A stretch of DNA of 44,355 nt from Nitrososphaerota archaeon. GTDB taxonomy: Archaea > Thermoproteota > Nitrososphaeria > Nitrososphaerales > Nitrososphaeraceae. The position numbers and the translations under genes were made by a program. Every line of letters starts with the position of its first letter. Position 1 is the first letter of the stretch. Of this stretch, positions 6,525 to 44,355 are shown in pieces. The notes under the pieces were generated by a model. The model ran no database searches. It had not been told where the DNA came from and saw nothing but the letters and a program-made list of their open reading frames with translations. The stretch lies in contig VBPX01000018.1 in NCBI GenBank assembly GCA_005877075.1, positions 1 to 44,355 on the forward strand, read 5' to 3'.

Positions 6525-7658
6525 TTGAATGAGGATATTTCGCAAAACGAAACGAGAAACAAAATAATTTTTCATATCGATTTTGATTATTTTTATGCAC
6601 AGTGTGAGGAAATACGAAGGTCCGATTTAAGAAATATTCCGAGTGTTGTTTGCGTTTATTCAGGACGAGAAGAGGATTCTGGAGTGGTTAGTACCTGTAA
6701 TTACGAGGCACGAAAATACGGTGTCAAGGCGGCCATGCCAATAAGGTTGGCAAAGTCAAAACTAAAAGACGTAGAAGCAATATTTCTTCCTACAGATATG
6801 CCATATTACCATGACATATCCGCAAATGCCATGAGGATAATTCATAATTATGGAGAATTATTTGAGCAAGTCAGTGTTGATGAATGTTATGTGGATTTTA
6901 CAAAGATCACCAATTCAGATTTTGATGACGCAAAGATTTTTGCGAGGTCGCTGCAAAAAAATATCAAAGATCAAATTAATTTAACCTGTTCTATTGGTGT
7001 TGGTCCCAATAAATTGATATCAAAAATAGCGTCAGGTTTCCAGAAACCGAATGGGATAACAGTTGTTACCGCCAATGATGCAAAGAATTTTATTTCAAAT
7101 TGCAATTTTGAGGATATTCCTGGACTGGGTCCAAAAACTGTCAAGAGACTTGAATCATTGGGGATTAAATCGATATCAGATATATCAAAGAAAGGTATTT
7201 TCGAGCTTAGGGATGCGTTGGGATACAAAACTGCGACCTTTTTAGTTAACGCATCAAATGGAATTGATTATTCACAGGTAAAAGTGCGGGGAACATCAAA
7301 ACAGATTGGCAAAATAGTTACCTTGAAAAAAAATGTAGATGATCTTGAACAAATCAACTTGACAGCTGAAAATCTTTGCAAATCTGTTTTTGAAAATTTA
7401 AGGGAAAAGAGACAGGCCTTCAGAGTGCTTAGTATAATATTAATTTTAGAGAACCTTCAGCATATTTCATTTTCGAGGAGTCTGAAGCTTTACTCAGCAT
7501 CTTTTGATGAATTGCAGAAGAACTCATTATCTATTATAAAAGAGATGATTAACAATAATTCTATAACTCTCAACAACATTAGGAGAATGGGTGTAGTAGT
7601 ATCTGATTTTAAAGATATATCCGGACAGGACTCATTATTGAATTATTTTGAAAATTAA
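6525..7658 (+). CDS. dinB: Y-family translesion DNA polymerase (Pol IV / Dpo4 type)
   Basis: A 377-residue lesion-bypass polymerase. The catalytic carboxylates are visible: D19 in HIDFDYFYAQCEE, and D119/E120 in SVDECYVDFT. Y24 occupies the steric-gate position that excludes ribonucleotides. A helix-hairpin-helix thumb (FEDIPGLGPKTVKRL) and a little-finger domain follow. The last ten residues contain QDSLLNYF, a good PCNA-interacting (PIP) box, indicating recruitment by the sliding clamp. The start is TTG at 6525; no in-frame ATG precedes the catalytic motif. It stands alone, followed by the CRISPR-like repeats. Confidence 0.95.
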   Translation: MNEDISQNETRNKIIFHIDFDYFYAQCEEIRRSDLRNIPSVVCVYSGREEDSGVVSTCNYEARKYGVKAAMPIRLAKSKLKDVEAIFLPTDMPYYHDISANAMRIIHNYGELFEQVSVDECYVDFTKITNSDFDDAKIFARSLQKNIKDQINLTCSIGVGPNKLISKIASGFQKPNGITVVTANDAKNFISNCNFEDIPGLGPKTVKRLESLGIKSISDISKKGIFELRDALGYKTATFLVNASNGIDYSQVKVRGTSKQIGKIVTLKKNVDDLEQINLTAENLCKSVFENLREKRQAFRVLSIILILENLQHISFSRSLKLYSASFDELQKNSLSIIKEMINNNSITLNNIRRMGVVVSDFKDISGQDSLLNYFEN

Positions 7659-7734
7659 ATTTTGTTTATGGTAGAGCGTTAATCTTTCTCAAGACCAATA
7701 TTATTAGAATAAATTTGCATAGTGTACAAGAAAT

Positions 7735-7835
7735 GTTTCAATCCTTGTTCTGATGGATTTGTTTTTTCGACCTTACGCCTAATAGTATACACAAAGCTGT
7801 TACCCGTTTCAATCCTTGTTCTGATGGATTTGTTT
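7735..7835. CRISPR. repeat-spacer-repeat, possible minimal orphan CRISPR
   Basis: Two identical 30-bp repeats lie at 7735-7764 and 7806-7835, separated by a 41-bp unrelated sequence. Each begins GTTTCAATCC and ends GGATTTGTTT, with the partial dyad AATCC/GGATT inside. The GTTTCAATCC start, repeat length, spacer length and dyad are all typical of archaeal CRISPR units. No third repeat and no cas genes are present in the window. The unit lies in the 400-base convergent gap between dinB and the AlaX gene, otherwise empty. Alternatives are a chance duplication or a small mobile-element scar. Confidence 0.55.
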
Positions 7836-8061
7836 ATAATATCATTGTTATTTTATTTAATCATCTCAAATGTATAACGGAAGTTCAAATAGAATCAATG
7901 AAACATAAAGGATTTGCATTTATCTTATGTTCTTTATTACATTTTCCGCACAAATTATTAATGTCTTTTTAATTGAAAACTAATTCTGATTCTGGTAGTG
8001 TTGTTTTAATCGAACTATTATATGATTGAAATTTTGCTATTAGATATTTGATTAGACGAAT

Positions 8062-9027
8062 TTATAAGGATAAAACCTTGAGTGATTCTTTGACTAAATC
8101 TTCCACAACTTTGTTTGACATTGATTTTGTTATTTGTGCGTTAACGAAATTTGATTTACCACCTCCTTTTCCTATATCCCGTCTCTTTCCTATGTTCTCA
8201 AATATACTTACACAATCTAAATTGATATCACTACTCCTTGCAAACACGAGACTTGCCATATCATTATCATCAGTGTTAACTAGAATTACAATTGTTCTTG
8301 CTTCACGTATCTTTTCTCCCACAAAAGTTTGAATCATTCTCCAATCAATATTGTCCAAGATTTTGGATATTATGTTTATTCTGTATTTCTCAAAGTACTG
8401 GCTGTGTATACTGGTTAATATTTTGTTTGTTAATATTTTCAATTTGTCGTGATACTGTTCTCTTTCTTTATTGAGCTTTTTAATAGTCTCTTCTACAGTG
8501 TTATAGTTTGCTCCAATTTCATTACAAATCACATTAATCTTTTCTGTTATTTTAACTGCTTCGTCCATCGCATTCTTGCCAACCACAAATTTAATTTCAT
8601 AATCGGATCCATTCATTGACATACTAGTTACCAAAAAAAATATACATTCAGACAAGTTACTAACATGCTTTATCGAGCATGCAGCGACATCATGGTTTTC
8701 TATTTCAACTACAGTAATATTATCCGCAGATGCCAATCTTTCTTCATTTGCTCTCAATTCAGGAATTTTCTTCTTCGCTTCAGCTAGTGACGGAAATGAA
8801 TGATGTAGTATATTTCGTCCTTCTATTATGAGTCGATTAACTTCCTCCTCTGCCAAAACGATCTTATCAAAATCCAGATCAAGTTCTGAGGATTCAATAA
8901 ATGCAACATTGTACGACTCTCTATGTTCTACCTTTCTCACATTCAAAGTCTTTTTTAATATTTTCTGCAATGATCCTATGAAGGCATGTTCAGCAGTGTG
9001 GGCAGCGTTAGTATTCATACTCATCAC
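8062..9027 (-). CDS. AlaX-type alanyl-tRNA editing protein with DHHA1 domain
   Basis: A 321-residue stand-alone homologue of the AlaRS editing half, expected to hydrolyse Ser/Gly-tRNAAla. The zinc-binding editing motifs are complete: HTAEH at residues 10-14 and CSIKH at 117-121. A long helical linker (about residues 170-230) leads to a C-terminal DHHA1-like domain with GKGGGKSNFVNAQI near the end. It is of the long AlaX class and lacks the aminoacylation core. It stands alone upstream of the cobalamin genes on the same strand, with 125 bases between. Confidence 0.85.
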   Translation of the reverse strand: MMSMNTNAAHTAEHAFIGSLQKILKKTLNVRKVEHRESYNVAFIESSELDLDFDKIVLAEEEVNRLIIEGRNILHHSFPSLAEAKKKIPELRANEERLASADNITVVEIENHDVAACSIKHVSNLSECIFFLVTSMSMNGSDYEIKFVVGKNAMDEAVKITEKINVICNEIGANYNTVEETIKKLNKEREQYHDKLKILTNKILTSIHSQYFEKYRINIISKILDNIDWRMIQTFVGEKIREARTIVILVNTDDNDMASLVFARSSDINLDCVSIFENIGKRRDIGKGGGKSNFVNAQITKSMSNKVVEDLVKESLKVLSL

Positions 9028-43606: not shown

Positions 43607-44355
43607 TTACTTTACCACTACTTGTCCCTTCATATAAGGATGAAGAGTACAATAGTAGTCAAATGTTCCCGCATTACTAAATGTCCATTGAAATGTTTTT
43701 CCTCCAGCCAAATAGCTTGAGTCAAACGCTGTACCTGATTCGCCTCCTTCAGCACTGCCCGATGTTACTGTATGTAATGTGGAATCTGCATTTTTCCAAA
43801 GTACCGCTGCGCCCTTTGATATCGTTATTGTTGGAGGATCAAAAAATTTGCTATTGCTTGGTGTAGAGGAACCTGGTGAAATGGTTACTTCAGAAGTTGA
43901 TGTTGGTGCTGCGGATTGGTTTCCTCCCATAGTAGTGGAATTTCCACTCATATTTCCACTCATACCAGTCATATTTCCACTCATATTTCCACACATATTT
44001 CCACTCATATTTCCACTCATATTTCCACTCATATTTCCACTCATATTTCCACTCATATTTCCACTCATCATTGTTCCGTTACCTGTCATGTTACTACTTG
44101 TATTGTCCATTGTAGCGTTTTGGGTTACTTCCTTATCACCTGTATTTGTGTTAGATTCGGATTTTGATGATGAAGATTCTGATGAAGATTTTGATGAAGA
44201 AGATTCAGAAGAGGAGGATGGTGAAGAGGAGGATGGTGAAGAGCAGGTTACACTCTCACTGCCTTTCGGTGCAACACATGTTCCTGTTGGATGATCAGTT
44301 GCAGTTGAATTATCCATTGCAACTACTGCAAAAGCAGCACCTTTGATAACATCTT
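43607..44355 (-). CDS. plastocyanin-like blue-copper protein with MSGN repeats, 5'-partial
   Basis: A secreted electron-transfer protein that runs off the right edge. The frame stays open upstream of the Met at 44317 to 44355, with a hydrophobic AAFAVVAM stretch that looks like a signal peptide end. A Ser/Glu/Lys-rich low-complexity linker and about eleven MSGN-type repeats lead to a cupredoxin domain of about 85 residues with likely ligands His (STLHTVTS), Cys and His (YYCTLHP) and Met (PYM). Copper carriers of this type serve the AMO electron chain. Confidence 0.88.
   Translation of the reverse strand, partial: DVIKGAAFAVVAMDNSTATDHPTGTCVAPKGSESVTCSSPSSSSPSSSSESSSSKSSSESSSSKSESNTNTGDKEVTQNATMDNTSSNMTGNGTMMSGNMSGNMSGNMSGNMSGNMSGNMCGNMSGNMTGMSGNMSGNSTTMGGNQSAAPTSTSEVTISPGSSTPSNSKFFDPPTITISKGAAVLWKNADSTLHTVTSGSAEGGESGTAFDSSYLAGGKTFQWTFSNAGTFDYYCTLHPYMKGQVVVK
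43941..44069. repeat. 12-bp tandem repeat coding MSGN
   Basis: The plus-strand unit CATATTTCCACT (MSGN on the minus strand) repeats about eleven times with minor changes: one MCGN, one MTG and an inserted CATACCAGT. The unit is a multiple of three, so copy-number changes keep the frame. Confidence 0.9.

Follow-up and report, generated by a model that had tools for sequence, protein, structure and literature searches.

The window, i.e. the whole stretch of 44,355 nt analysed here, carries archaeal 16S and 23S rRNA genes. Judged from gene content and relatives, it probably belongs to an ammonia-oxidizing archaeon of Nitrososphaerales type. Two identical 30-mers, 71 nt apart, are found at 7735–7764 and 7806–7835 in the gap between dinB and a DHHA1-like gene. 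The earlier note had described a pair of identical 30-bp repeats at a convergent intergenic site. Both the repeats and the gene arrangement are present, with dinB on the plus strand and the DHHA1-like gene on the minus strand. The features of the locus are:

6525–7658, plus strand: dinB (Y-family DNA polymerase), Pfam IMS, E 1.6e-45
about 7664–7882, no strand: lineage-specific insertion holding the mini-array, ends judged by eye from the alignment
7735–7771, minus strand: full 37-nt CRISPR repeat GTCGAAAAAACAAATCCATCAGAACAAGGATTGAAAC, Rfam CRISPR-DR7, one mismatch to the four copies on contig C89
7772–7805, minus strand: 34-nt spacer GGGTAACAGCTTTGTGTATACTATTAGGCGTAAG, boundaries from the C89 copies
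7806–7842, minus strand: clipped repeat, last 30 nt (7835–7806) identical to the full copy, first 7 nt (7842–7836) diverged
8062–9027, minus strand: DHHA1-like gene, Pfam DHHA1 with E 0.00066 (below the cut-off), a conserved neighbour in congeners

The repeat unit and its intergenic site

Close exact direct repeats reached no more than 14 nt in 40 Markov-shuffled windows, which excludes chance as the source of the 30-nt pair at 7735–7835. The extent of the repeat follows from a second array of this genome. It lies at the end of contig C89, where at least four full copies occur that differ from the window repeat by one base. Since these copies include the bases corresponding to 7765–7771, the latter belong to the repeat. 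Hence, the division into a 30-bp repeat and a 41-bp spacer, as proposed originally, is ruled out in favor of a 37-nt repeat and a 34-nt spacer. The spacing is regular, with a period of 71 nt in the window and of 71–75 nt on C89, where the spacers measure 34–38 nt.

The full copy (7771–7735, minus strand) matched the Rfam family CRISPR-DR7 with 42.3 bits over model positions 1–37 (gathering score 37); the clipped copy has no separate entry in the Rfam listing. The clipped copy (7842–7806), which is identical to the full one at 32 of 37 positions, has lost the first 7 nt of the leader-side repeat and retains the stem and the GATTGAAAC end. The internal dyad amounts to a 5-bp stem only (AATCC/GGATT), whose folding energy alone is not significant and whose position is that of the stem in the Rfam model. 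Thus, the earlier identification as a CRISPR unit is upheld by the Rfam match and the C89 array, but draws no significant support from the folding energy of the dyad. The unit has one spacer, no adjacent cas genes and a repeat in common with another array of the host, as is typical of an orphan mini-array. Judged from these sequence comparisons, it is a genuine CRISPR mini-array of the CRISPR-DR7 repeat family.

The gap between dinB and the DHHA1-like gene measures 409 nt in the window versus 95–201 nt in eight congeners, all of which lack an array at this position. Consequently, an insertion of about 220 nt, specific to this lineage, holds the mini-array. The same comparison rules out ordinary conserved intergenic DNA, a reading that had been considered together with a repeat confined to this site; the repeat recurs on C89. 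No mobile-element gene lies between the two flanking genes.

The left flank (GGTAGAGCGTTAATC...) has a tRNA-like look. This candidate was dismissed, since both ARAGORN and Rfam report no tRNA at this site. Near the other end of the window, at 43994–44063 (end approximate), a 12-nt unit, CATATTTCCACT, is arrayed in tandem inside overlapping ORFs on both strands, where its translation would give a repeat of four residues.

Related arrays and the transcribed strand

A relative from the same family (G034) has 48 repeat copies that differ from the window repeat in five bases and adjoin a type I-B cas operon. The gene order is cas4-cas2-cas1-cas6-cas3-cas5-cas7, and a large protein occupies the position of Cas8. 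Models of NCBIfam and Pfam matched Cas4, Cas2, Cas1, Cas3, Cas5, Cas7 and Cas6b. The best match of Cas5 is I-B Cas5b, under the cut-off of that model; Cas7 has I-B Csh2 as its best NCBIfam match, also under the cut-off, and lies above the Pfam Cas7 cut-off. The Cas8 candidate, a protein with no family match, is assigned by position alone. This locus and CRISPR-DR7 (RF01320) share with the mini-array a 37-nt repeat (32/37 identical), the same stem, the GATTGAAAC end and a spacer range of 34–38 nt, within which the 34 nt of the window spacer fall. In contrast, the window has one spacer instead of 47, one of its repeats is clipped, and neither cas genes nor a recognizable leader lie beside the array.

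In G034 a short gap separates cas4 from the array. This gap places the leader side, and the transcript would therefore correspond to the minus strand of the window. We infer transcription of the mini-array from this strand, in agreement with the strand of the Rfam match. A TATA-like string, TTAAATAAA, lies upstream on the minus strand and is a candidate promoter element, though such strings are common in this AT-rich DNA. The DNA upstream of the mini-array resembled the corresponding upstream DNA of G034 and of the congener G009 no better than shuffled sequences did, and the leader of the C89 array is located outside the assembly.

The C89 array stops at the contig edge, and its last repeat is cut to about 12 nt. 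One spacer is present twice there, 219 nt apart, owing to a genuine duplication or to a loop in the assembly. Another C89 spacer, AGAGTAACAGGCTAAACGAGCTGGCTGAACTAATAG (L007:318–353), has ACGAGCTGGCYGAAMTA in common with one of the 47 G034 spacers. A search for the same repeat in a larger array with cas genes, suggested in the earlier note, was successful in part: the larger array exists on C89, whereas an array linked to cas genes was found only in G034.

Traces of the repeat family also occur in congeners. G009 has a mini-array composed of degenerate, full and truncated repeats (L055:4060–4210, approximate) and, on contig C78, a C-terminal fragment of cas1. In G021 a single repeat is accompanied by a cas1 trace below the cut-off. 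Both cases fit a decay of the CRISPR-DR7-type repeat family across the group. The same 25-nt core occurs in a two-repeat unit on a contig of a Desulfobacteraceae MAG, where the second copy differs in two bases (L081:2280–2370). This unit has a different 5' part and is separate from the window array; all it indicates is a wide distribution of the repeat family.

Cas genes and spacer

The assembly of the window's genome is 94.9% complete and consists of 123 contigs. A search that detected Cas1 in 9 of 14 control genomes and 17 of 61 related ones found none in this assembly. The Csh2/Cas7 profile detected Cas7 in G034 and none in the window's genus (11 congeners). Among 13 genomes tested, Cas3 exceeded the cut-off in G034 only, and the Cas7 and Cas3 of G034, used as direct queries, found no match in the window's genome. 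Weak matches to Cas3 profiles do occur there. They were rejected as Cas3, since they fall short of the cut-off and appear in every congener; presumably they are other helicases. For Cas6 only PF10040 was used, a model that misses even the Cas6b of G034. These negatives cover Cas1, Cas7 and Cas3. Within that scope the absence of cas genes, as claimed from the window alone, extends to the assembly, and Cas1, Cas7 and over-cut-off Cas3, as expected in the genome for a functional type I-B system, were not found. It is possible that a cas operon is missing solely because the assembly is incomplete.

The window spacer has no second occurrence in 61 genomes, even when 3 mismatches are allowed over 33 of its 34 nt. 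The comparison with viral and plasmid sequences, also suggested in the earlier note, returned no target. Exact and part-pattern scans of IMG/VR with the window spacer and the C89 spacers gave no protospacer, blastn against phages gave matches at E ~4 for the spacer, i.e. at chance level, and a plasmid search with the spacer gave no match. Spacers of soil nitrifiers generally remain unmatched: a study that tested 487 arrays, taken from 550 genomes, reported no matches below two mismatches (PMC11849493).

The window spacer does resemble one of the C89 spacers (L007:173–206). Both are of equal length and are identical, in register, at 22 of 34 positions (65%). A likeness of this degree was reached in 1 of 20,000 shuffles (four C89 spacers, 13 offsets), and in local alignment no shuffle matched it; the likeness is a post hoc observation and involves 34 bases. 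The simplest reading is that both spacers were captured from the same protospacer in two related elements, as their sequences suggest. It is less likely that the window spacer is a diverged copy of the C89 spacer, since their flanking repeats are identical except for one base.

Origin and possible function of the mini-array

We consider it probable that the locus is an orphan mini-array of the CRISPR-DR7 family, which is of type I-B in the relative, and that it has lost the capacity for adaptation and is mainly a relic. It would derive from an array that was formerly larger or has been relocated, and that recombination or deletion cut down. Further spacers are probably no longer acquired, because the leader-side repeat is clipped and a recognizable leader is lacking. 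The array could still release one crRNA if it is transcribed and if a matching Cas6 and effector complex are available, encoded on a mobile element or in an unassembled part of the genome. Cuts in both intact 3' halves of the repeats would set this crRNA free, and the processed crRNA from 7772–7805 would bear the ATTGAAAC handle. Such a crRNA would target a relative of the element recorded in the C89 array. Without a matching Cas6 and effector complex the mini-array would be inert. Four observations argue against a relic that shrank in place. The stem and both 3' halves of the repeats are preserved, through selection or simply through youth; cas genes may be absent from the assembly only, since the latter is incomplete and the C89 array ends at a contig edge; the congeners show an empty site rather than a larger ancestral array; and the TATA-like string upstream may be a promoter element.

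The first two of these observations would also suit a working satellite array that acts in trans, with an AT-rich promoter on its right, processing by Cas6 and a host I-B machinery missing from the draft assembly, where a cas operon could follow beyond the C89 contig edge. The resemblance of the spacers, by which both arrays may serve the same defence, points in this direction as well, as do cas-less arrays with host-identical repeats reported in Thaumarchaeota (PMC6563490). However, a nearly complete assembly yielded neither Cas1, Cas7 nor true Cas3, Cas7 was not detected in 11 congeners, and the array has no recognizable leader; we regard this explanation as unlikely. The arrays in question, on the thaumarchaeal elements NCAV2-E1 and NitIsl-E1, have type I-B-like repeats and no adjacent cas genes, similar to the window. 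They differ in their 69–96 spacers and in a host with a matching I-B cas locus, compared with one spacer and no cas locus found here.

Delivery by a virus or a small mobile element, which would have turned the host CRISPR machinery against competitors and later been reduced to the insertion of about 220 nt, is improbable. The anatomy of one spacer between a complete and a truncated host-type repeat, in the absence of cas genes, is that of viral mini-arrays and solitary repeat units (PMC8616872, PMC6858448), and the locus is indeed a lineage-specific insertion. On the other hand, the window array is chromosomal, lies between conserved genes that are adjacent in eight congeners, and has no viral or other mobile-element genes, no recognizable leader and no known target. 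Moreover, the repeat core is absent from IMG/VR, and the insertion was not found in plasmids at the sensitivity used. More doubtful still is a transcribed satellite that acts in trans against the C89-related element, in a cas-less lineage depending on the cas genes of passing mobile elements. That the pair is a short intergenic direct repeat, due to chance or unrelated to CRISPR, can be practically dismissed, for although only two copies occur in the window and the repeat folds weakly on its own, this reading is refuted by the regular C89 array of the same repeat and is further opposed by the Rfam match and by the related repeat beside cas genes in G034.

The mini-array is probably an ordinary CRISPR remnant, and cas-less arrays, orphan arrays and single-spacer viral arrays have all been described before. 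The orphan I-F arrays of E. coli (PMC8616872) are likewise short arrays left without cas genes, but mostly carry spacers against cas genes, whereas the window spacer matched no gene. By itself, the mini-array changes no view of CRISPR biology. For this archaeal group it does provide a clean case of an orphan CRISPR mini-array, and eight congeners show the empty site. Should the likeness of the two spacers hold, both arrays record attacks by related, still unknown elements, and the two 34-nt spacer sequences are usable baits for finding them.
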